Shown here piece by piece: positions 10,605 through 57,152 of a stretch of DNA of 64,000 nt. The translations under genes were made by a program, and so were the position numbers. This DNA comes from Oceanicaulis alexandrii DSM 11625. Lineage in GTDB: Bacteria; Pseudomonadota; Alphaproteobacteria; Caulobacterales; Maricaulaceae. The stretch's first letter is position 1. Every line of letters starts with the position of its first letter. The notes beneath the pieces are model-generated. The model worked only from the letters and a program-made list of their open reading frames with translations. It was not told the origin of the DNA and made no database searches. The stretch is taken from the NCBI RefSeq assembly GCF_000420265.1, contig NZ_ATUP01000001.1, positions 434,001 through 498,000 of the forward strand. Reading direction: 5' to 3'.

Positions 10605-12140
10605 TTATTGCGCGGCAGTCTGTGTCCAGGCTGGATCGAGCGGCGTGTTTCGCGCGGCGTCATTGGCCGCCTCGACCGCATCCAGCATGGCGTCCAGCTC
10701 CTCGCGCATCAGGACTTCGCCATGCATCACCACCGCCTCGACGGCCCGCGTATTGCGGATGTCCTCAAGCGGATTGGCGTTCAGCAGCACCAGATTGGCG
10801 CGAAAGCCCGGCAGGACGCGTCCGGTATTCCAGTCCATGAAGCGCGCCGGCGTCACCGTCGCTGATTCCAGCGCCTGTGCGGGCGTCATGCCCGCATACA
10901 CCAGCGCTTCCAGCTCCTGATGCATGGAATACCCCGGCGCCATGACCGGCACATTGGCGTCAGTCCCCGCCACCATCGGTACGCCCGCCGCCAGCACCGC
11001 CTCAAACATCAGCTGTTGCGCCTCGGCATAGGTGGTCCAATAGGTCTGATAGCGGTCGCGCCAGCCTTCGCTGCGATATTGCTGCGGCACGGAGTAGATG
11101 TTCACATCCGGCAGCCAGCCCATGGCTCGGCCTTCCGCGACGCCGGGATTGACCAGCCCCACCGGCGCCGTCGCGAGCGCATCTTCAGTGTCGGTCTTTT
11201 GCTGGGCGAAGCTCGAGACCAGCGCCAACGTCGACGCCAGAACGATCTCATTGTCGATCATGGACTGGGCGATCTCTTCGCGACGCTCCATCACATAGTC
11301 GAGATACTCACCCGCATTGCTGACGCCATAGCCGCCGAAATCCCGGTCGAGGCCTTTGATCAGCTCCTCCACATGGGCGACTTCGCTCTGATTGGACGCC
11401 CACAGATCATCGAGCCGCGCCGCCACCGGCACATGGCCCACCAGCGGAATGCCCACCGCTTCACTGGCGGCGCTGACCGCCTGATAACCGCTCAGGCTGA
11501 GATAGCTGCTGGCCTTGACCGCGTCATAGCCCTCCGCCGCCAGATCGCGCACTATCTGGTCCGCCGCCTCGTCCGTGCGGGCCACATTGCGCTTGGAGGT
11601 CCAGGACTGCCACAGCCCTTCAGCGAAATCATAGGTCGCGATCTGAGCGGCGACCACATAGAGGTCCGGGCCGAGCAGCTCGCCGGCGGAAATCTGATCG
11701 CGCCAGTCCAGATGATGGGGCTGGCCGTGCATTTCACGAATCTGGGTGACGCCATGGGCGAGATAAAGCGCCAGATCGTTCTGGCTGTTCCACAAATGCA
11801 CGTGAGAATCCGTCAGGCCCGGCATCAGATAGCGTCCCTCGCCATCCATGACTGGCGCGCCGGCCCGCTGCGCCATGTTGGGCCCCATAGCGGCGATCAA
11901 TCCGGCCTCGACGACCACGTCCATCGGCTCTGAGAACCGCTCCGAGCCCGGCTCCAGCACGCGCACATTGGCGAGCACATAGCGTTCAGGCGTCTCATCT
12001 GACGGCTCAAGCGCGATCACCGGCGTGCGCCCGCCAAACATCTCCACGATCGACCGGTCAATGACCACATAGGTCCCGATCGCGCCCAGCACGTTCAAGA
12101 GCACGAAGACGCCCAGAATCCGAAGGCCCCATTTCAACAT
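10605..12140 (-). CDS. Membrane-anchored amidohydrolase (imidazolonepropionase-like)
   Basis: 511 residues from ATG 12140, which has AAGGAG 7 bases upstream. One N-terminal membrane segment (about 5-26) precedes a metal-dependent amidohydrolase. The beta-sandwich start is VLANVRVLEPGSERF, the metal-binding HxH is in DSHVHLWN (about 118-120), later histidines lie in LVGHVP and HVEEL, and the metal Asp is in AGTDANVP (about 420). Such anchored enzymes are often periplasmic peptidases or organophosphate-type hydrolases of unknown substrate. The divergent TetR gene and its two operators point to ligand-induced expression. Confidence 0.85.
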   Translation of the reverse strand: MLKWGLRILGVFVLLNVLGAIGTYVVIDRSIVEMFGGRTPVIALEPSDETPERYVLANVRVLEPGSERFSEPMDVVVEAGLIAAMGPNMAQRAGAPVMDGEGRYLMPGLTDSHVHLWNSQNDLALYLAHGVTQIREMHGQPHHLDWRDQISAGELLGPDLYVVAAQIATYDFAEGLWQSWTSKRNVARTDEAADQIVRDLAAEGYDAVKASSYLSLSGYQAVSAASEAVGIPLVGHVPVAARLDDLWASNQSEVAHVEELIKGLDRDFGGYGVSNAGEYLDYVMERREEIAQSMIDNEIVLASTLALVSSFAQQKTDTEDALATAPVGLVNPGVAEGRAMGWLPDVNIYSVPQQYRSEGWRDRYQTYWTTYAEAQQLMFEAVLAAGVPMVAGTDANVPVMAPGYSMHQELEALVYAGMTPAQALESATVTPARFMDWNTGRVLPGFRANLVLLNANPLEDIRNTRAVEAVVMHGEVLMREELDAMLDAVEAANDAARNTPLDPAWTQTAAQ

Positions 12141-33963: not shown

Positions 33964-34021
33964 TGGTGCGGGCGGCCGGACTTGAACCGGCACGGGCGTT
34001 GCCGCCCAACGGATTTTAAGT
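33964..34021 (-). pseudogene. 3' half of host tRNA-Leu(UAA), split by element insertion
   Basis: Minus strand: from the anticodon-loop AAAATCCG through the variable arm (GGGCGGCAACGCCC), T-arm GGTTCAAGTCC, acceptor strand CGCCCGC and ACCA. 54 tRNA nucleotides (33964-34017) plus the rest of the core. The matching 5' half (acceptor GCGGGCG) is at 57118-57152. Joined at the core they make an intact 89-nt intronless tRNA-Leu with anticodon UAA. The DNA upstream on the element side (AATAAAT) supplies no 5' half, so this gene is dead. Confidence 0.92.
34012..34021. other. attL core
   Basis: GATTTTAAGT, equal to the core at 57112-57121. It covers the tRNA anticodon loop (minus-strand ACTTAAAATC, containing the anticodon TAA). 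Confidence 0.92.
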
Positions 34022-34301: not shown

Positions 34302-35228
34302 ATGATCCGGCAATACCGATATGAAGACCTAAGCGACGATGAGTTCGAAGAGCTTGCGAACCGTCTTTGCACACAGCTCCTTGGCATCGGAACTATTTCA
34401 TTTGCGCCCGGCAAGGATGGCGGGCGAGATGGAAAATTCACAGGCACGGCAACGCATTACCCGAGTGCGGTCGCGCCTCATAGTGGGAAATTCATTATTC
34501 AATCCAAATGGACTTCTAATCCTGCAGCTTCCTGCGCCGATAACGATTTTGCACGGCTTATGGACAAGGAATTCCCCAAGGTACAGGCGCTCTTTGAGAA
34601 TGGTGAGATTGACCACTACATCGTTTTCACAAATAGGAGAAAGCCCGCAAAATCCACTCTGGTTCTTGCGGAAAAATTCGCCGAAATCGGCCTTACGTCT
34701 GTGGATTTTTTCGGCACAGAGGAGATCGACCGTTGGCTAGAAATGAACCCGGCGATCTGGACGAGCCTCGGTTTTGCCGACAGTAGCCAGCCTTTTCGGG
34801 TTGACCCTACAGACTTGAGCGATGTTGTTGTGGCCTTTAAGGAGGCCGTTGACGACGCTGAACACACGTTCAGCAGCGCAACAAACTTCACTCATGTCAA
34901 ATTCAAGGAAAAGAACAAAATCAACATTCTAACCGATGAGTACGCCGACTATATTAGAAGCGAGTCGATGCCATACTTTTCGGACATCAAGGCCTTTCTG
35001 AGCGATCCACGGAACTCAGAATTTCGAGACCTTTACCACGATGCGGCTGACGACCTGAAACAGAAGATCATGGTGACTAGGAGCCAATTCACGACCTTCG
35101 ATAAGGTCCTAACTTACATCCATGACGCGATCACGAACAACAATCCGAAGCTACGAACAAGAAAGCGGTTCGTCCGCGTCTTCCTTCATTACATGTACCA
35201 CGACTGCGATATCGGCCAGCATGCTTAG
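34302..35228 (+). CDS. ABC-3C system effector with Mrr/PD-(D/E)XK-like nuclease domain
   Basis: 308 residues. The N-terminal 150 residues look like a restriction-endonuclease fold: GKDGGRDGKFTG (about 37-48) provides the acidic pair and FIIQSKW (about 64-70) the Q-x-K catalytic element; TNRRKP and GTEEIDRWL follow. The rest is helical. The following genes, a small middle component and a DUF2326 ATPase, complete an ABC-three-component set. In that class the first protein is the nuclease effector triggered by the ATPase. Low GC versus host. Confidence 0.8.
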   Translation: MIRQYRYEDLSDDEFEELANRLCTQLLGIGTISFAPGKDGGRDGKFTGTATHYPSAVAPHSGKFIIQSKWTSNPAASCADNDFARLMDKEFPKVQALFENGEIDHYIVFTNRRKPAKSTLVLAEKFAEIGLTSVDFFGTEEIDRWLEMNPAIWTSLGFADSSQPFRVDPTDLSDVVVAFKEAVDDAEHTFSSATNFTHVKFKEKNKINILTDEYADYIRSESMPYFSDIKAFLSDPRNSEFRDLYHDAADDLKQKIMVTRSQFTTFDKVLTYIHDAITNNNPKLRTRKRFVRVFLHYMYHDCDIGQHA

Positions 35229-35481
35229 TCCCGCCAAACACCTTGATTTAGACCGCTCGGCACTGCGTGTTTCGAGCGTAATCCTGTCTGAATTGAAACG
35301 TCGCCGGGTTGTATCATTCGATGCTGTTAGGAAGCTCGTGGCAAACCGTATCAAGGATGATAGCGATTTCGTGCTGATGCCAGCGCTCAACTTCTTATAC
35401 CTCATTGGTCGGGTAGATTATCACCCGAAGACAGACTCATTTGAATACATATCCAACGGAGGCAATGCGGATGCAGATTAG
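35221..35481 (+). CDS. ABC-3C middle component
   Basis: 86 residues from ATG 35221, overlapping the effector gene by 8 bp. Small winged-helix-like protein (LDLDRSALRVSSVILSELKR; FVLMPALNFLYLIGRVDYHPKTDSFEYI). Such short middle components occur between effector and ATPase in ABC-3C operons and are thought to bridge them. Assigned mainly from size, fold pattern and position. Confidence 0.72.
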   Translation: MLSPAKHLDLDRSALRVSSVILSELKRRRVVSFDAVRKLVANRIKDDSDFVLMPALNFLYLIGRVDYHPKTDSFEYISNGGNADAD

Positions 35482-37276
35482 TCGCCTCTATTCGAATAAA
35501 CCGAACGTATTTACGCCAATTGATTTCCACTGCGCGGAAAATTCAGGAACGCTTAATGTCGTGTTCGCAGAAGTAAAAAATCCAAAAGATGATAAAAAAG
35601 ATTCTCACAACCTAGGCAAGACAACGTTAATTCATCTTATTGAATTCTGCCTATTGAAATATATCACCGGAACACAACACTTTCTGGAAAAGCGTAGTGA
35701 TCGATTTAAATCGTTTGTCTTCTACCTTGAACTCGCGCTCCATGATGGTGGGTTCGTAACGGTATCGAGGTCCGTCGCAAACAATACGAATGTGTCTCTT
35801 AAAAAACATGATCAGTGCGGTCAGGACTTCACTTCGCTTCACGAGGATGAATGGGACCATCATGAAATTCCTCTAGCGACAGCCGTCACGTTGCTAGACT
35901 CATATTTAGATCTGCGTCTTGTGGAACCTTGGGGCTACCGCAAAGGTGTATCTTACTTCCTGCGCACACAGAATGATTATCGCGACGTTTTTCAGATCCA
36001 GAAATTCGTGCAGGGCAAAGATCGAGAATGGAAGCCATATCTGGCTAGCATCTTCGAACTAGACCATGAGGCTGCTGGAAAAAAGTATGAGATAGATCAG
36101 CTCATAGAGGAGGCCTCGGGGCGCCGCAAACGCAAAGAAGCCGAAATCCTGCCAGAATACAATGATCGAGATTCTCTAGCTTCTGAGATTGAGATCAAGC
36201 GCGATGAGCTATCGGATGTCGAAACGCAACTTGACGATTTCGACTTTTCCCACGAAGAGCGCCGGATTAATCGGGACTTGGTAGATCAGGTTGAGCGAGA
36301 GCTCGCCGACATCGCCCGCAAGCTGTATACGGTCGAAGTTGATATAGAGCAGATCGACCACTCGCTTTCGAATGGTGTGAAGTTTGACCTCGGAAAGATT
36401 AAGGGTATTTTCTCGGAGAGCGAAGTCCACTTTCCCGACGCTCTATCTCGAAGCTACGAGGATCTCGTCGAGTTCAACAAGAAACTCACAAACGACCGAA
36501 ATACTTCGTTGCGCTCAAGGAAGCGCGACCTGTTGTCCCTCAGGGATGAATTAGAAAATCGACAGGATGAGCTGAGCGCGCAGCGCAGCGAATATCATGC
36601 GATAATCAAAACCGCCGACTCTTTTAAAAAATACAAAGAACTACAAAAGCAGTTGGCGAAACAACGCGCCAATATCGCAATTCTGGAAGGTCAGCTTTCA
36701 CGGCTGGACGAATTGCAAGAAATTGATTTGGAAATTCGCGAGCTCCGCAAGCAACGCGACGAACTTGTCCATCGTATGGAGATGAGCCTTCGGTCTGAGA
36801 ATTCACGCAAGAATGAGGTCATCAGATTATTCAATAGGTATGTTCGCCGAGTATTGAATATCAATGGCAAGTTTGTGATCCGACAGAACAAAGAAGGTAA
36901 TTTTGAGTTTAATATCCAAACGTTAGACCGGTTGGGGCAGGACACAAGCCAAGCCGACGGGAAGACATATGGTCAGCTCATCTGCGCTTTGTTTGATATG
37001 GCCGTACTAAAGGTTCTGGAAGATCTACCGTTCTTTCATTTTGTTTATCACGATGGTCTCCTAGAGGGGCTGGATAATAGGAAAAAAATCGCCGTTCTCG
37101 AACTCGCGCGCGAACTAATTCAGTCTGGAAAAATTCAGTACATTTTGAGCGTTATCGATTCCGATCTGCCTCGGGATGAGAATGAGCACAAAATCACTTT
37201 CTCTGATGACGAAGTCATTCTAAGCCTCAATGACAGCGGCAACGCCGGTCTGCTTTTCAAAATGCCACCGTTCTAG
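35471..37276 (+). CDS. ABC-3C ATPase, DUF2326, SMC/Rad50-like
   Basis: 601 residues from ATG 35471 (GGAGG 8 bases upstream), overlapping the middle-component gene by 11 bp. The P-loop is SHNLGKTTL (about 45-53). A long coiled coil (about 205-445) separates the head halves, and the C-terminal half has GQDTSQADGKTYGQL as a signature-like segment and FFHFVYHDGLLEGLD as Walker B. SMC-like ATPases of this class sense invading DNA or structure and license the effector. Third gene of the set. Confidence 0.85.
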   Translation: MQISRLYSNKPNVFTPIDFHCAENSGTLNVVFAEVKNPKDDKKDSHNLGKTTLIHLIEFCLLKYITGTQHFLEKRSDRFKSFVFYLELALHDGGFVTVSRSVANNTNVSLKKHDQCGQDFTSLHEDEWDHHEIPLATAVTLLDSYLDLRLVEPWGYRKGVSYFLRTQNDYRDVFQIQKFVQGKDREWKPYLASIFELDHEAAGKKYEIDQLIEEASGRRKRKEAEILPEYNDRDSLASEIEIKRDELSDVETQLDDFDFSHEERRINRDLVDQVERELADIARKLYTVEVDIEQIDHSLSNGVKFDLGKIKGIFSESEVHFPDALSRSYEDLVEFNKKLTNDRNTSLRSRKRDLLSLRDELENRQDELSAQRSEYHAIIKTADSFKKYKELQKQLAKQRANIAILEGQLSRLDELQEIDLEIRELRKQRDELVHRMEMSLRSENSRKNEVIRLFNRYVRRVLNINGKFVIRQNKEGNFEFNIQTLDRLGQDTSQADGKTYGQLICALFDMAVLKVLEDLPFFHFVYHDGLLEGLDNRKKIAVLELARELIQSGKIQYILSVIDSDLPRDENEHKITFSDDEVILSLNDSGNAGLLFKMPPF

Positions 37277-37450: not shown

Positions 37451-39004
37451 CTAACGCTCCCGATCAAACCCATCATCTCGCGGGCGATCTCGCCCTGGCT
37501 TGGGCTCATTGAGTTGTACTCGCGCTTCTGACCAACCGCGCTGCAACGCAGACCGGCTATCGTCGGCAGGCCGTTCACGCCCGCCCTCGGGCGGTGATGG
37601 CTGCCTGTCGGGCGCTTTGTTGTCTTGCAGATAGCGTGTGAGTGAATTGCGAGCCTTCTCGCGCTCCGCCTCCCGTCCCTGTAGTGCGGCTTGATAGGGC
37701 TCATTTTCAGATGCGTGACGCAACTCGATAGCCTTAAGGGCATCCGCACGCTCACGCCGAACATCCAGCAGCTCGGCCGCATACCGCTTATTGACGAGCT
37801 CGGTTTGAAGCTGTGCCTCCGCTCGCAGCTTGGCGTCATTGGCCTGTCGCTCTGCGGTGTGCCGATCACCGATAGCCTTGAGCTCAGCTTCTTGTATGCG
37901 GCGCGTTTTGCCAGTCAGGTCGATGTAGCGCATGAGCCGCGCCGACCAGCGCTTTTGTTCTGCTCGAGCTGCGTTCATCTCTAGCTGATGGCGCTGGGCC
38001 AGTTCGGCGGTTCGCCTGCGCTCAGCGACCCGCAGACTTTCCTGCACGAAGTCTGCCTCGGAGCTGTGGCGCGATTTCACATCCTCCCGGCGGGCGCGGA
38101 ACTTGGCCGCAGCTTCGTCGCGCTCATAGCTCTGGCGCCGGAACTGGTTTTGATAGTGGGCGGCAAGCGCCAGATCCTTTTTGCGCTGGTCCTTTTCGAG
38201 AAGGGCAGTGAGACGGGTCTTGTCAACCTTGGAGCGAGCTGCGCGCTCCAGATTGAGATCAATGATTTCAGCATTGCGCTCTCGGCGCGTGCGGCCCCGG
38301 TCAATATCTTCGTAGGGCGTATCCTCACGATACTGCGTGCGCCGCCACGACCGCTCTTTCACGGGCTTGGAGTGGGGGCGGTATTTGTTTGTTTCGACAT
38401 ACTGACCAGCAGGTCCGAGATGGATCTGCGGGGTGCGGTCGATGCCCTGATCTTCCAAAGAGCGCCGGTCGATGCGTTCTTCGTGCCCAGCCCGCTCAAG
38501 GGCTTCATTGGCGATCTCCTCCCAGAGCTCGCGCACATAGGCACAGGGCGCATCGCCGGGGCGGCCGGCGGCTTTCCAGTCCCGCGCCGAGTCCGAAAGC
38601 CGGACAACGCGCTTGCCAGTTTCGCGGTCGCGATCACGCACGAGCATGTGGAAGTGAGGGTTATGCTCATCTTCCCCGCACTGGTGGATAGCGGCGTACC
38701 ACGGCACGCGACCTTCGCTGAGACGCTTGCCAAAGGCCTGCACCAGAGCCGCCCTCTCCTCATGCGATAATTCCACGGGCAGCGCGCCGCGCAATTTGTC
38801 CGCAACGCGGGCGTTTGCGCGATCAGCGCGCTCACCACGATCCACGAAGTTCCGCGCATCTGTCGGATCGTACGGAATGCCACCACCGGCAAATAGCTCG
38901 GGCTCGGCGCTCTCTCGCGCAATATATTTGATGTAAGCCCCAGCGGTTCCGGAGCGGTGCGTAGTTTTCCCGATGCTGGAGATATTGAGTGAATAGATGG
39001 CCAT
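37451..39004 (-). CDS. MobA/MobL (MobQ) family relaxase
   Basis: 517 residues. N-terminal relaxase domain (about 1-190) with the start MAIYSLNISSIGK, His107, and the three-His metal motif DEHNPHFHM (His114, 117, 119). Downstream, a long charged coiled coil (about 250-450; RARREDVKSRH...) and a proline-rich, acidic tail. MobQ relaxases nick oriT and pilot the strand. The start has GGAGAG 6 bases upstream. A recognisable oriT lies 190-340 bp upstream, divergent side. Confidence 0.92.
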   Translation of the reverse strand: MAIYSLNISSIGKTTHRSGTAGAYIKYIARESAEPELFAGGGIPYDPTDARNFVDRGERADRANARVADKLRGALPVELSHEERAALVQAFGKRLSEGRVPWYAAIHQCGEDEHNPHFHMLVRDRDRETGKRVVRLSDSARDWKAAGRPGDAPCAYVRELWEEIANEALERAGHEERIDRRSLEDQGIDRTPQIHLGPAGQYVETNKYRPHSKPVKERSWRRTQYREDTPYEDIDRGRTRRERNAEIIDLNLERAARSKVDKTRLTALLEKDQRKKDLALAAHYQNQFRRQSYERDEAAAKFRARREDVKSRHSSEADFVQESLRVAERRRTAELAQRHQLEMNAARAEQKRWSARLMRYIDLTGKTRRIQEAELKAIGDRHTAERQANDAKLRAEAQLQTELVNKRYAAELLDVRRERADALKAIELRHASENEPYQAALQGREAEREKARNSLTRYLQDNKAPDRQPSPPEGGRERPADDSRSALQRGWSEARVQLNEPKPGRDRPRDDGFDRER

Positions 39005-43824: not shown

Positions 43825-44283
43825 TTGGATACCACCATCACCGTCGCACAGGCTTTTTCGTGGGGCCTGACAATCGCTGGCCCGCTCGCGGTGTTTGTAG
43901 GCACCGGGTTTGCCCTGAGCATTACCGCAAACGAGCACATTAATATTGTTCCGAAAATTTCCGCTTGGCTGCTGGCCCCGGTATTCGGGCTGCTGCTCGG
44001 AAGCGTGCTCGCGTCCGCCATTGCGCCAAACTGGGGGCTCTTTGGTGTCGCATGGTTTTTTGGAATTGGCTGGACACTGACATTCATGTTCGCCGCCATC
44101 TGCGGTCACGATGACACGCTGTACCTCCTCGGGCGTTTTTGGAACGAGACCCTCTTTCCCTACCTCAAGCGACAGTTTCGGCGTCGTCACAATTCACAAT
44201 GCTGGCGAAACGATCATGGCCGAAACAACGTCCGCTACTCGCTGTTTGACGATGACAACGATCTGGACGGAGGTGCGGCATGA
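43825..44283 (+). CDS. Small membrane protein, first gene of the coupling-protein operon
   Basis: 152 residues from a TTG at 43825 with GGGGAG about 9 bases upstream (the only plausible start). Three membrane helices (about 10-32, 44-66, 72-96) and a basic then acidic cytosolic tail (PYLKRQFRRRH; FDDDNDLDGG). Unassigned. Overlaps the next gene by 4 bp. A helix-loop membrane partner for the ATPase that follows is plausible, since coupling proteins normally carry their own N-terminal helices and this one lacks them. Confidence 0.65.
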   Translation: MDTTITVAQAFSWGLTIAGPLAVFVGTGFALSITANEHINIVPKISAWLLAPVFGLLLGSVLASAIAPNWGLFGVAWFFGIGWTLTFMFAAICGHDDTLYLLGRFWNETLFPYLKRQFRRRHNSQCWRNDHGRNNVRYSLFDDDNDLDGGAA

Positions 44284-45944
44284 TTTTGCGCAACTTCAGT
44301 CGTCGGCTCGGGCACCAGATGGGTGCAAACCGGACAGCCACGCGAGTCCACCGAGACTCGAAGAAGGCCAATCGGGCACTGAAACGAGTCGAAACATCAG
44401 GCGTTCACGATCACGGACGACTGGCGTGTGAGGATGACCTTTTCAAGGCAGGCTTACTGACCCGGACGAGAGACGCGGTGCCTGTTCTTGCGTTTCAAAA
44501 CCAGCCGATCTGGGACAGTACCGACTGGCCAATTCACATCACTGCTCCGCCGGGAAGCATGAAGGGCATGGCGCTGCTGTTTCCCATGATGGCAAGCTGG
44601 CCACACTCCCTGTTTGCGATTGATGTCGGGTGTGAGGCCATTCGCGCGCTGACTCCCATGCTTCTCAAGCGGGGCACACGTGTCATCTCGATCGCGCCGA
44701 GCGGCAAGCATGGTTTCCCCGCTATGGGTTGGGATCTCCTGAGACCATTTGTCGAAGCTGTGCAGGAAAACCGAGAGGATCGCGCCCTCGGGCTGGCACG
44801 ACGCATCGCAAATATCATTCTTCCGCATTTGCCGGGAGATCGGAATGAGTGGATCCGACTGGGTGGCGTCGAGCTCATCATCATGTGCTTGTTTCATCTC
44901 GCCGACAATGACCCTGAAGAATGCACGCTGTCCAACCTTTGGATTCTCCTGACCACCGCACCGAAGAAGGTGCTGGAAATGGCAGGCGACAACGCACGGC
45001 GCCCGATTGTGCTGCGTCGCGCCCTGAAGTTCGTGAACGAGTACAATGTCGAAGCCCACAAGCAGTTGTTCTGGAAATTCGAAACTGCTGCAGATGCGCT
45101 CAACCTGCTAGAGCCGGAAAGCGTTTTCGCCTCCATTACCTCGCGCGATGACTTCCGTCCGTCTGAGGCGAAATCCGGAAAGCAACCCGTCGCGATCTTC
45201 CTTGCCCTGACCGGCGCGGAAATGGAGGCGGCTGGCCCGATCATCTCCATCATGATCAGCTTGCTATTGGAAGAGCTTGCAGAAGCGGAAGGGGATCGCC
45301 CCGTTCTGTGCGTTCTGGATGAACTCGCGCAATTGCCGCGAACCGAGACCGTGATGAAGACGGTTCGGGTCTACCGGAAACGCCGGATGAAGTGTGTGAC
45401 CGTGGCCCAGTCCCGGAAAACGCTGGATCAGAAATGGGGCGAAGGAGCCGCTAGCGAGCTTGAGGCGAATGCCGGCATCAACGTTTGGATGGACCCAGAG
45501 CATCAAGTCGCCGGGGAATTGGAGCGTAAGTCCGGCACCAAAACGGCGCTCGGCCATGGCGTGCAAACCGGAGAGCGCGCCTCGAACGCATTACCTGAAC
45601 ACCAAGTCAGTAACTTGCCGTTCGCGGTGGTGTCGAACATGCCAGCCGACCAAGCCATCCTCGAAGTGAGGGGCCTGCCGGGGCTTATCGTGGCCGACAG
45701 GACGCCGTGGTGGAACATCAGCCCCCTCAATGTCGAAATTTCAGACGCGTATCGGGATGATCACTTTCAGTTCGACCCGGGCCTCCTGATGGATCAGAGC
45801 GAGGCTCTGGCGATGTTTGGCTTGAGCCCTGAGTTCACCCGACAGGACGTTTATGACCGCGCTGCGCTGCTTCAGGGCCGCTTTTCGGCCGACCTTATCG
45901 CGCGCGCTACCGACCTTCTTATCCAATCAACGCAGCAGCGCTAG
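44280..45944 (+). CDS. Coupling-protein-like (VirD4/TraG) ATPase with altered P-loop
   Basis: 554 residues. VirD4/TraG pattern: ITAPPGSMKGM (about 86-97) at the Walker A position (usual GSGKG with the second Gly here Met), Walker B VLCVLDELAQLPR (about 342-354), and a C-terminal TraG segment TVAQSRKTLDQKWG...NAGINVWM. No N-terminal membrane helices; the neighbour at 43825 may supply them. Coupling proteins bring the relaxosome to a secretion channel. The Lys of the P-loop is kept, so ATP binding remains possible. Confidence 0.85.
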   Translation: MILRNFSRRLGHQMGANRTATRVHRDSKKANRALKRVETSGVHDHGRLACEDDLFKAGLLTRTRDAVPVLAFQNQPIWDSTDWPIHITAPPGSMKGMALLFPMMASWPHSLFAIDVGCEAIRALTPMLLKRGTRVISIAPSGKHGFPAMGWDLLRPFVEAVQENREDRALGLARRIANIILPHLPGDRNEWIRLGGVELIIMCLFHLADNDPEECTLSNLWILLTTAPKKVLEMAGDNARRPIVLRRALKFVNEYNVEAHKQLFWKFETAADALNLLEPESVFASITSRDDFRPSEAKSGKQPVAIFLALTGAEMEAAGPIISIMISLLLEELAEAEGDRPVLCVLDELAQLPRTETVMKTVRVYRKRRMKCVTVAQSRKTLDQKWGEGAASELEANAGINVWMDPEHQVAGELERKSGTKTALGHGVQTGERASNALPEHQVSNLPFAVVSNMPADQAILEVRGLPGLIVADRTPWWNISPLNVEISDAYRDDHFQFDPGLLMDQSEALAMFGLSPEFTRQDVYDRAALLQGRFSADLIARATDLLIQSTQQR

Positions 45945-51128: not shown

Positions 51129-51713
51129 ATGAGCATCGGAATTGTCCCCTCGCCTACGGGCCGTGTGATCGGCTATGCGCGGGTTTCGACCAAGGCGCAG
51201 AAGCTGGACCTTCAGCATGACGCGCTGCGCCGTGCGGGGTGCGAGCGGGTTTTTGATGATCACGGTGTGTCTGGCGCAAAGGCGCGCCGCCCTGGCCTTG
51301 ATCAAGCGCTATACTGCCTGCGGGCGGGTGATGTTCTGGTGATCTATAAGCTCGACCGCTTGGGCCGCTCGGTGGAGCATCTGGCGGCTTTGCTGCGGGA
51401 GTTTCACGCGCGCGGCATACATCTGTGCTCGCTAAGCGAGGGCATCAACACCCAGACCATTGGCGGCAAGCTGGTCTTTCATGTGTTCAGCGCCGTGGCG
51501 GAGTTCCAGCGGGACTTGATCCGCGAGAACACCTTGGCCGGACTGCAAGCGGCGGCGCAGCGCGGCAAGCGCCCAGGGCGGCCCAAACGGCTGAGCGCAC
51601 AGCAGGTGCGCGAAGCCCGCCGCGCGATCCACCTTAAGGGCGAGAGCTATGCGATTGCCGCAGCGCGCTATGGCGTCGCGCCCTCCACCGTGTGGCGGGC
51701 GGTGACCGGATAG
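51129..51713 (+). CDS. Serine recombinase (resolvase)
   Basis: 194 residues. Resolvase catalytic domain: nucleophile Ser20 in YARVSTKAQ, LDRLGRSVEHL, then EFQRDLIRENTLAGL, and a C-terminal Hin-type HTH (SAQQVREARRAIHLKGESYAIAAARYGVAPSTVWRAV). The TnpR/Tn3 group. On this element it may resolve multimers or be a transposon remnant. The 270 bp upstream are AT-rich (50857-51128), where a res site could lie, but I see no clear one. Confidence 0.92.
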   Translation: MSIGIVPSPTGRVIGYARVSTKAQKLDLQHDALRRAGCERVFDDHGVSGAKARRPGLDQALYCLRAGDVLVIYKLDRLGRSVEHLAALLREFHARGIHLCSLSEGINTQTIGGKLVFHVFSAVAEFQRDLIRENTLAGLQAAAQRGKRPGRPKRLSAQQVREARRAIHLKGESYAIAAARYGVAPSTVWRAVTG

Positions 51714-55381: not shown

Positions 55382-55708
55382 TGGTGCGGACGGGGGGACT
55401 CGAACCCCCACGGGCGCAATGCCCAACGGATTTTCTTACCTGCCACGCCTTTCGACGCCACCCGGAAATCGGGTGTTTGGGGTCTGGACTATCCCTTCAT
55501 CATACCCCGGCAAGCCGGAGCTTAGACGCCGCCCGTCTAGTCTCTACACCTTCCGCCGGCACAAAGGTGCCGATGGCTTGGCTCGGGATTAGCATGGAGC
55601 GCGAGCCCTTTAGCCTTCCCCGAATTTGAGCGGTTCTACGTCCGGAGTTTCCTCCGGCGCACTCAAATTGCTTAAGTCCGGTGCGTCTACCAATTCCGCC
55701 ACGTCCGC
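55382..55708 (-). tRNA. tRNA-Leu(UAA) with group I intron, element-borne replacement
   Basis: 327 nt. The 5' exon is 55674-55708 (acceptor GCGGACG, ends ...GGACTT) and the 3' exon 55382-55434 (AAAATCCG... to CCA). Spliced, they give an 88-nt tRNA-Leu with loop CTTAAAA and anticodon TAA. It differs from the host gene in the acceptor stem (A for G at position 5, with the matching change), variable arm and T-arm, so it is not a host duplicate. The intron lies exactly between U34 and A35. Confidence 0.93.
55435..55673 (-). ncRNA. Group I intron (tRNA-Leu(UAA) family) of 239 nt
   Basis: Starts AAGCAATTTGAG; the internal guide UUUGAGU pairs with the exon end ACUU including the conserved U-G pair at the splice site. 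CCGGAG-GAAA-CUCCGG forms P2 with a GNRA loop. Conserved core strings: TTCGGGGAAGGCTAAA (P element), AATCCCGAGCCAAGCC (Q), GGAAGGTGTAGAGACTA (R), GGATAGTCCAGACC (S), and the last base is G, the terminal ωG. No ORF inside, so no homing endonuclease. Matches the cyanobacterial/plastid tRNA-Leu intron in position and core. Confidence 0.92.
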
Positions 55709-55778
55709 ACGGAGAGATCAAACCGAATGCCACACTGGTATAGCGGGAACACGAGTTGTTTTTAAAGAGGAAATTGCT

Positions 55779-56966
55779 CTAGTCAGTATCTTTTACACGT
55801 TTTCTTTTTGGCTTTCGGACATTTACCGCTGCAGTATCGATGCTGTCGGCAATGTGGGCCGCATAGTATTTTTGAATCATCTCAACGCTGGTGCGGCAGT
55901 TTTTGGCGATCTGGTAGATGTCCGCACCTTCTGACAGTCGCATACAGATATAAGTATGGCGCAACGAATAGGCGGTCCTGCGCTGTCCCTCGCGATCAAA
56001 TTTGAGGCCTTCTTCCTCAAGGATACGGTTTAGCAGCTCCGCATGACTTTTCGGGAAAAGCAGATCATCTGGCTCCGGGTTATTGCGTTCAACCAGCCGC
56101 TCGAAGGGGCGCACGGCCCCCGGCATGCTTTTGCAATACCCCACGCCGCGCTTGCCGCGTACGGAGATCAGCAAGATCGTTTCATCGGTCGCCTCATCTT
56201 CGACGACCTCCACATCCCGGTATTCAAGCCGTTTGATTTCGTCAGGCCGCAGGCCCGTGTTTGCCATTAGAAGCACGTAGTCATGCAACTGCTCGCATGA
56301 CCAGCGGTGATGCGCCCGCCTTGTCGCCTTCGCTCGGCGGCGCGTAGCCTCATACAGCTGCCTGTATTCGTCAGGCGAGAACCACGCCCTGCGCGTGATT
56401 TTAGAACTCGCCCGATAAGGCGTCGAAAGATCCGGCAGGCGATCAAGCCAGCCATGACGCACGGCCGTCTTCAAAGTCTGCCGAAGTGCGACGATTTCCT
56501 GATGGATTGTATTGCGATTGGGGCGTTGGTTAGGATCGGGCTTATGAAATGGCTTCAGTACGTGGTTGGTCTGGCGATAAATCCGGTATTCCTGCACCAA
56601 GCCCGGCGTGATTTCCGATAGACCTTTTTCGCCAAAAAAGGGGATGAGGTAGTTATCTAACTTCTTCATCATTCCTTGGACGTAGCGCTCTGAGCGCTGA
56701 CCCTCGGTGATCACCTCATACTCGCGCCGGAATTGCTCGGCGGCCTGTTTAAAGGTCTTCTCGTTTTTCAGATTTCCATCTCGTGCCCGCCCGCGGAGAT
56801 CAAGATACCAATCTTCGGCGAACTCCTTGGCCAGCTGAAGGCTCTCTTCCTTCGTGCTCATCCGGCGGTTTTTCCCCTTCAGATAAGCCGAGCACTGCCA
56901 ATAGCGGCTATTAGGCCGCTTATAGACGTGGAGCTTTCCGCCAAAGAGGGTGTGATGTTCTGCCAT
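55779..56966 (-). CDS. int: Tyrosine recombinase (integrase)
   Basis: 395 residues from ATG 56966. N-terminal arm-binding and SAM-like core-binding domains, then the catalytic domain with Arg240 (TGLRPDE), SLRHT (Arg336, His337) and the Tyr nucleophile near 367 (QKYYAAH). It lies at the right end beside attR, between the replacement tRNA and the core, and should catalyse insertion and excision at GATTTTAAGT. The long helical insertion around 135-165 is not unusual. Confidence 0.92.
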   Translation of the reverse strand: MAEHHTLFGGKLHVYKRPNSRYWQCSAYLKGKNRRMSTKEESLQLAKEFAEDWYLDLRGRARDGNLKNEKTFKQAAEQFRREYEVITEGQRSERYVQGMMKKLDNYLIPFFGEKGLSEITPGLVQEYRIYRQTNHVLKPFHKPDPNQRPNRNTIHQEIVALRQTLKTAVRHGWLDRLPDLSTPYRASSKITRRAWFSPDEYRQLYEATRRRAKATRRAHHRWSCEQLHDYVLLMANTGLRPDEIKRLEYRDVEVVEDEATDETILLISVRGKRGVGYCKSMPGAVRPFERLVERNNPEPDDLLFPKSHAELLNRILEEEGLKFDREGQRRTAYSLRHTYICMRLSEGADIYQIAKNCRTSVEMIQKYYAAHIADSIDTAAVNVRKPKRKRVKDTD

Positions 56967-57002
56967 GAGAACAATAATAGAACACTTTTCCGCAAAGCGC
57001 AA

Positions 57003-57111
57003 GAAGTGTGTAAGGTATGTGTAAGATATTTTCGGGCGCCTGATGCGCCCGAAAATGATTTAACTAATTGATATATAATGATTTATTATTTAGTCGGAGA
57101 TGGGCTTTAAA
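57003..57111. other. Integrase promoter and right arm, with arm-type repeat
   Basis: AT-rich spacer between int and attR. GTATGTGTAAGA (57015-57026) matches 34079-34090 exactly and is preceded by GTGTGTAAG, giving two TGTGTAAG units. It overlaps the region where the int promoter should lie, so integrase binding could also control its own gene. Confidence 0.65.
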
Positions 57112-57121
57112 GATTTTAAGT
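57112..57121. other. attR core
   Basis: GATTTTAAGT, equal to 34012-34021. Its plus-strand right part AAGT continues into the 5' half of the split host tRNA-Leu. Confidence 0.92.
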
Positions 57122-57152
57122 CCGGTGCGTCTACCAATTCCGCCACGCCCGC
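57112..57152 (-). pseudogene. 5' half of host tRNA-Leu(UAA)
   Basis: Minus strand GCGGGCGTGGCGG..., D-arm TTGGTAGACGC, anticodon stem CCGGA and loop CTTAAAA, ending in the core and then element DNA (TTTAAAGCCC) instead of the 3' half. 35 tRNA nucleotides (57118-57152) plus core bases. Pairs with the 3' half at 33964. Not functional alone. Confidence 0.92.

Follow-up and report, generated by a model that had tools for sequence, protein, structure and literature searches.

The window analyzed here, a 64,000-nucleotide stretch of the 3.02-Mb genome of Oceanicaulis alexandrii DSM 11625 (positions 434001 to 498000 of contig NZ_ATUP01000001.1), contains a host tRNA-Leu(UAA) gene that is broken at the anticodon loop by a 23.2-kb element (33964 to 57152). 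The left attachment site, attL (33964 to 34021, minus strand), consists of the 3′ half of the gene, and the right one, attR (57112 to 57152, minus strand), of the 5′ half. The halves share the 10-bp core GATTTTAAGT, of which two exact copies were found in the window upon searching both strands, at 34012 to 34021 and 57112 to 57121. Joining the flanks at the core produced a complete, intronless tRNA-Leu(UAA) gene according to ARAGORN, and the same program, applied to both ends of the element, detected no tRNA at either junction alone. In same-genus genomes (e.g., G014, G010, G005, and G002), an intact intronless tRNA-Leu(UAA) gene adjoins the same clpP-side (right) flank. The attL half is 95 to 97% identical to the intact gene in several genomes of the genus and about 88 to 90% identical in others; apart from short repeat-like pieces, these intact genes lack the left flank as a neighbor. 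The core copies, the joined flanks, and the ARAGORN analyses bear out the original prediction, made from the letters of the window, that the host gene is split and rebuilt at neither junction. Restoration of the target at either end is ruled out by the absence of a tRNA there.

A complete tRNA-Leu(UAA) gene with an encoded CCA end (55382 to 55708, minus strand) was recognized inside the element, beside the integrase gene, by a match to RF00028 and by reading of the sequence. It is 97% identical to the host gene in its 5′ part and about 80% identical in its 3′ part, as expected from the earlier claim of a complete gene differing from the broken one. A group I intron of 239 nucleotides (55435 to 55673, minus strand) lies between U34 and A35 and divides the core, a placement proposed earlier and upheld by both RF00028 and the boundary rules of group I introns (U before the intron, G at its end), which leave a spliced UAA anticodon. 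ARAGORN places the intron two bases later, with a length of 237 nucleotides, and labels the gene Phe(AAA); run without its intron option, it calls zero tRNAs in the window, which is a warning for annotation. The match to RF00028 covers the full-length model with 43.2 bits (E = 4e-9), below the Rfam gathering score of 50 bits, which 7 of the 36 intron-containing genomes of the order exceed, with up to 61.6 bits among the relatives. Of 36 clusters of introns tried, 29 could be parsed and aligned. The consensus fold contains 57 pairs; one or more compensatory double changes were observed in 21 of these, and all 29 introns keep the U-G pair of the 5′ splice site. The window intron has this conserved core and fold, as well as the U and G ends with the U-G pair, and we infer that it is a self-splicing group I ribozyme. 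Its length suggests that it is too short to hold a homing endonuclease gene.

The adjacent gene (55779 to 57002, minus strand) encodes a tyrosine integrase of 407 residues if translated from a TTG codon, an ATG codon being present 12 codons further in. The protein contains phage integrase domains, with 27.1 bits for PF13102 (cut-off, 22.3), 26.3 bits for PF00589, just below its cut-off of 27.1, and E = 8.6e-34 for the phrog_1 integrase; the NCBIfam score was 18.9 bits for a cut-off of 220. Residues R252, K284, R348, and Y380, which may be the catalytic ones, are invariant across 12 aligned relatives, and the usual His/Trp site is apparently occupied by Cys.

A second intact intronless tRNA-Leu(UAA) gene elsewhere in the genome, which the original prediction had named as a refuting observation, was sought. 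The genome contains 40 tRNAs detected with RF00005, all 40 of which were named by ARAGORN, including nine class II genes (Tyr, four Ser, and Leu with the anticodons UAG, CAA, CAG, and GAG). Neither this inventory nor a Leu(UAA) pattern search of the genome revealed another tRNA-Leu(UAA), and a hidden second copy is ruled out on this basis. Since none of the named tRNAs is another Leu(UAA), the replacement appears to be the sole reader of UUA in the host. UUA is used sparingly, accounting for 8 of 10,246 codons in uncurated long open reading frames (ORFs) of the left flank and for 19 of 5,220 in the element. By pattern search, the intact intronless Leu(UAA) gene was missing in 34 of the 36 intron-containing genomes of the order, the two exceptions being G022, whose attR holds a chimera, and G260, which has a second copy. 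An intact match was present in all eight control genomes; in one of these, G007, it corresponds to a replacement inside a remnant.

Elements combining an intron-containing tRNA-Leu(UAA) gene with an integrase, which had been suggested as a search target, were found repeatedly in the order and beyond. Among 398 genomes of the order, 41 contained relatives of the integrase (E up to 1e-20) and 36 contained a group I intron (RF00028, E up to 0.001). The intron was located within 5 kb of such an integrase in 13 of these 36 cases and within 150 bp in 9; the latter count rules out a chance association. ARAGORN names 28 of 29 other intron loci that were read as Leu(UAA) with an intron, and the remaining one (L123), named otherwise, aligns full-length to the window gene. 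The Maricaulis alexandrii element has the same order of parts, namely, the 3′ half, the intron-containing tRNA, an integrase with 67% identity, and the 5′ half. A scan of named genomes detected at least 543 relatives of the integrase, and the 80 best ones, which were retained, bear titles from Alphaproteobacteria, Acidobacteriota, Planctomycetota, Gammaproteobacteria, and others. In the usual layout, the 5′ half is followed by the integrase gene and by a complete replacement tRNA gene, mostly 70 to 260 bp past the matched part of the integrase; longer gaps were observed in L166 (486 bp) and in L112, L110, and L113 (1.2 to 3.7 kb). The Planctomycetota loci L168, L192, and L211 display an attP-like core only, with no host half. 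For integrase relatives located at Phe, Met, Arg, Asn, and Gln genes, attR holds a complete tRNA, in keeping with the ordinary scheme. One Met-targeting relative (L267; 1284 to 1360 and 2926 to 3002 in the integrase orientation) has a complete tRNA-Met gene at attR and a second one downstream of the integrase gene.

If the replacement has to avoid serving as a target, then replacements lacking an intron should break the core in some other way, a prediction going beyond the original one. For this comparison, 128 loci were grouped into 106 clusters at 95% protein identity, of which 59 entries had a parsed replacement; the other clusters were classic, truncated, or unparsed or had no replacement nearby, and L201 and L261, which have a Leu(UAG)-like gene, were left out of the classification. 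Entries targeting the UAA gene comprised 32 replacements with an intron, 2 of them located at a contig end and called from only the 5′ exon, and 2 without; those targeting the CAA gene comprised 1 and 19, respectively, and those with no parsed target comprised 3 and 2. The dinucleotide G30-A31 was kept in 36/36 replacements containing an intron versus 12/23 of the intronless ones (Fisher test, 4.8e-6). Of 196 natural tRNA-Leu 5′ arms, 193 retain it (98/100 for Leu(CAA) and 95/96 for Leu(UAA) in 142 alphaproteobacterial genomes), these counts being 5′-arm pattern matches rather than whole genes and including the split gene of the window genome itself; comparison with the intronless class gives 3.9e-10 (Fisher test). 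The 11 intronless entries that lost G30-A31 did so in three ways (GT, CA, and GG). The bases opposite these altered positions form Watson-Crick pairs in 9 entries and a G-U pair in 2; thus, the DNA word changes and the RNA stem stays. More broadly, among the 21 intronless entries for which the element's target is known, 17 depart from it within positions 30 to 38: 6 at position 32 only, 6 at 31 only, 2 at 30 only, and 3 at two positions. Exon positions 30 to 34 differ from the target in 2 of the 33 entries that have both an intron and a target, L172 (position 32) and L207. The latter (11394 to 11716) is a Leu(CAA) replacement whose group I intron apparently lies between U33 and C34 rather than between U34 and A35.

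A matched-genome control covered 50 of the 80 loci, lying in 48 genomes. In these element-carrying genomes, 16 of 118 tRNA-Leu 5′-arm matches lacked GA at positions 30 and 31, comprising 11 known replacements, 2 genes in further elements of the family, and 3 in other places. The two elements added by this pattern search have substituted cores (A31T in L269 and G30C in L272) and were kept outside the statistics. L269 (754 to 840 and 15884) is a 15-kb Acidobacteriota element whose replacement lies at the end far from the integrase.

The integrase tree was built from 103 of the 106 clusters after removal of proteins with fewer than 300 residues or more than one stop. Five rows (L091, L110, L112, L113, and L210), which are outside the 59 entries, received the intron label manually; L109 was labelled substituted with its target unknown and is outside the pair test. 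The intron label requires 20 changes on the tree, 11 or more of them on branches with good support, and the substituted label requires 12 (7 or more on such branches), which implies that the states switched often. The window element (L088; UAA target, intron) and L089 (CAA target, substituted core) are sister rows. On supported branches, an independent-pairs test gave a mean of 4.7 pairs as predicted, 0.0 against, and 1.2 ties, a result that is only suggestive. Together, the intron and the substitutions look like two ways of breaking one core, which supports self-immunity, and the intron is, judging from these comparisons, one of at least two solutions. The proposal that the intron immunizes the replacement is in this manner strengthened by the intronless replacements, most of which break the core by substitution.

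Several observations weigh against this interpretation. The tree-controlled test is underpowered, with 4 to 5 informative pairs and a median p of 0.0625 (range, 0.0625 to 0.375), and the stricter trait limited to positions 30 and 31 gives 2.2 pairs as predicted and 3.8 ties (p = 0.5). The class comparison above was made with entries that are not independent of each other, and the target pattern required GA at positions 30 and 31, so that other kinds of target would have been missed and the sample is biased toward the canonical core. Four intronless replacements (L101, L160, L175, and L217) are unchanged at positions 30 to 38 and differ only at position 28 or 29, which are variable in natural genes. 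A remnant of about 1 kb in G007, a genome of the same genus, holds an intronless Leu(UAA) gene with an intact core and no integrase gene. In the order, 23 of the 36 intron-containing genes have no integrase of the window's family within 5 kb; three of these adjoin a split 5′ half, and some of the contigs are cut short. Finally, several Acidobacteriota relatives (L213, L218, L222, L227, and L228) have no replacement within 620 to 900 bp of the integrase.

Some loci appear to record decay. In the Maricaulis alexandrii element (L170) and in L177 and L189, inspection by eye revealed at attR the 5′ half followed by a 3′ half with an unfitting acceptor stem, and ARAGORN called no tRNA at these sites. 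It is as if these elements once restored their target and then stopped doing so. A 3.7-kb stretch of G341 keeps the 5′ half, an intron-containing tRNA gene, and the 3′ half, with no integrase of the family in the 19.9 kb read; G052 and G285 are similar on one side. Intron-containing tRNA-Leu genes are found 150 to 190 bp inside a split tRNA-Leu gene at L242 (9762 to 13470), L235 (9726 to 10236), and L081 (11386 to 11907), with no integrase of the family within the stretch read; these loci may represent a second type of element or remnants. The 23 intron-containing genes with no integrase nearby could likewise be leftovers that the host cannot lose, belong to another element type, or have another origin. 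In the G007 remnant mentioned above (L085; 3745 to 4872), the same host tRNA-Leu(UAA) gene is split by about 1 kb, and the intronless tRNA-Leu(UAA) gene that it contains is a different one, on the opposite strand; no relative of the integrase was found in that genome.

These data can be accommodated by the following scheme. An attP site having lost a working 3′ half would, upon integration, leave two dead halves of the host gene, and a complete tRNA-Leu(UAA) gene carried beside the integrase gene, if expressed, would make this loss survivable. The group I intron between U34 and A35 would split the crossover sequence of the replacement, on the assumption that crossover occurs in the anticodon loop, and splicing would restore the tRNA; the replacement would thus function as a tRNA and yet be no target for the element or its sisters. 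Intronless relatives would mostly reach the same end by changes at positions 30, 31, or 32, provided that altered copies no longer recombine. The observation itself is confirmed, and immunity is its best-supported explanation: we consider it likely that the element destroys tRNA-Leu(UAA) and brings its own copy protected by the intron from its own integrase. We also lean, with somewhat less assurance, toward the wider proposal of a widespread tRNA-replacing family that destroys tRNA-Leu on entry, supplies a copy recoded against its own integrase (through a self-splicing intron placed in the crossover loop or through altered bases at positions 30 to 32), spreads introns, and leaves the host dependent on it, with members in Alphaproteobacteria, Acidobacteriota, and Planctomycetota (in the last, only the attP-like core is seen, with no host half).

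The most serious alternative is historical accident, the captured donor tRNA-Leu(UAA) having already contained an ancient intron between U34 and A35 that was not selected for immunity. Cyanobacteria and plastids ancestrally have a group I intron at one fixed position of tRNA-Leu(UAA) (PMC4033280), the presence of an intron in 32/34 UAA versus 1/20 CAA replacements is what donor history would give, and the intron-containing genes with no integrase nearby (23/36) fit as well. Accident would nonetheless leave unexplained the changes at positions 30 and 31, which occur in 11/23 intronless replacements versus 3/196 natural arms and 0/36 intron-containing replacements, the existence of three kinds of change (GT, CA, and GG), and the CAA replacement of L207 with its own intron at another position. 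We regard this explanation as improbable, if worth keeping in mind. Far less plausible is the view that the changed cores reflect a foreign origin, the replacements coming from distant taxa and having drifted from the host genes: the identity of just about 80% between the 3′ parts of the window replacement and of the host gene would suit it, and it conflicts with the near-invariance of G30-A31 among the natural 5′ arms of tRNA-Leu in the class (193/196), with the assignment of most matches lacking GA to known replacements and further elements (11 and 2, respectively, of the 16 detected among 118), and with the retention of G30-A31 in 36/36 intron-containing replacements carried by the same family. 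A role of the intron in slowing or tuning tRNA supply, or in tying tRNA maturation to the state of the element, is the least credible reading. Splicing of group I introns might in principle serve as a point of control; no evidence for such a role was found, and CAA elements of the same layout manage without an intron.

The remainder of the insert encodes proteins for mobilization, a resolvase, and potential cargo. A MobA/MobL relaxase (37451 to 39004, minus strand; PF03389, E = 4.1e-24) and a type IV coupling protein (44280 to 45944, plus strand; PF02534, E = 8.1e-17, with PF12696 and PF10412) were identified, as was a serine resolvase (51129 to 51713, plus strand; PF00239, E = 1.6e-45). Based on the combination of integrase, relaxase, and coupling protein genes, the 23.2-kb insert is an integrative mobilizable element; no other type IV secretion family was found among the 17 longer element ORFs scanned. 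The G+C content between the halves is lower (0.54 versus 0.63). The left end contains an ABC-3C-like pair, a CTD12 protein and a DUF2326 protein (34302 to 37276, plus strand; PF20279, E = 2.5e-38; PF10088, E = 9e-26), which PADLOC reports as candidate PDC-M68B (E = 4e-52) and which is possible phage-defense cargo. A phage origin of the element was rejected, the integrase having no match in the phage collection at E = 1e-5; four relatives occur in viral contigs. Relatives of the integrase (E up to 1e-60) are present in four plasmid records. The intron-containing tRNA-Leu gene of the window matches 1,282 PLSDB plasmid records with 60 to 80% identity, and in 1,259 of these the match spans 80% or more of the gene. 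In the two plasmid loci inspected, L147 (4001 to 4299) and L148 (4001 to 4298), its neighbors are an AAA ATPase gene and resistance genes of the aac(3)-II type. Agrobacterium phage Atu_ph07 (490 kb) displays a weak match (68%) to about half of the intron-containing tRNA-Leu gene at 113074 to 113246, where no feature is annotated.

If the scheme is correct, the notion of an island that restores its target would give way to that of an island that replaces its target with a copy that it cannot cut. The coexistence of introns and substitutions offers a natural experiment on what integrases read in a tRNA gene, and the elements provide a concrete, testable answer to the question of how tRNA-Leu(UAA) group I introns that lack an endonuclease can move between bacteria: they would be vehicles spreading such introns among bacterial tRNA genes without homing endonucleases. 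Dependence of the host on the element's copy would also lead to the persistence of degraded elements as the only source of tRNA-Leu(UAA).

In the standard scheme, islands restore their tRNA target, attP rebuilding the gene (PMC4383910). The element of the window resembles Islander-type islands in its tyrosine integrase, its attB, which lies within a tRNA anticodon loop, the split target, and the direct core repeats; unlike these islands, it restores nothing, neither junction yielding a tRNA, and a separate whole gene replaces the target. In cyanobacteria and plastids, tRNA-Leu(UAA) genes with group I introns have been described (PMC4033280). The window gene is alike in the identity of the gene and in the location of the intron in the anticodon loop, and it differs in that the intron rides an integrative element beside an integrase gene, in Alphaproteobacteria, Acidobacteriota, and others. 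The insertion site of the cyanobacterial introns is presumably the same, between U34 and A35. Group I introns are also found in the T-loop of transfer-messenger RNA, whose gene is a frequent integration target (PMC11915505). In IStrons, a group I ribozyme renders a mobile element harmless to its target (PMC4227781); here, the ribozyme, a 239-nucleotide intron, sits in a spare tRNA gene rather than around the element, and no transposase family was detected among the 17 ORFs scanned. Tycheposons similarly combine a tyrosine recombinase with a tRNA gene at the element border, and the accessible text of their description mentions no intron (PMC10872708).

The closest precedents come from Archaea. 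The disruption of archaeal tRNA genes was proposed by Randau and Soll as a protection against integration (PMC4390854), and Sugahara et al. suggested in 2012 that a mobile element might profit from adding an intron that stops further invaders (PMC3293823). The earlier statement that the strategy was not known as a described one must be softened accordingly; searches of the open-access literature, outside of which most subscription papers lie, returned no recognizable description of an integrative element replacing a split tRNA gene with an intron-containing copy. The archaeal proposals share with ours the ideas that an intron in a tRNA gene stops integration and that it benefits the element that brought it. 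In the archaeal case of Sugahara et al., the intron enters a reconstituted gene via attP. The element of the window differs from the archaeal cases by a bacterial group I ribozyme, a separate replacement gene, the many cases available, and the alternative provided by substitutions, and it would bring the archaeal idea of tRNA introns guarding against integration to a tractable bacterial system.

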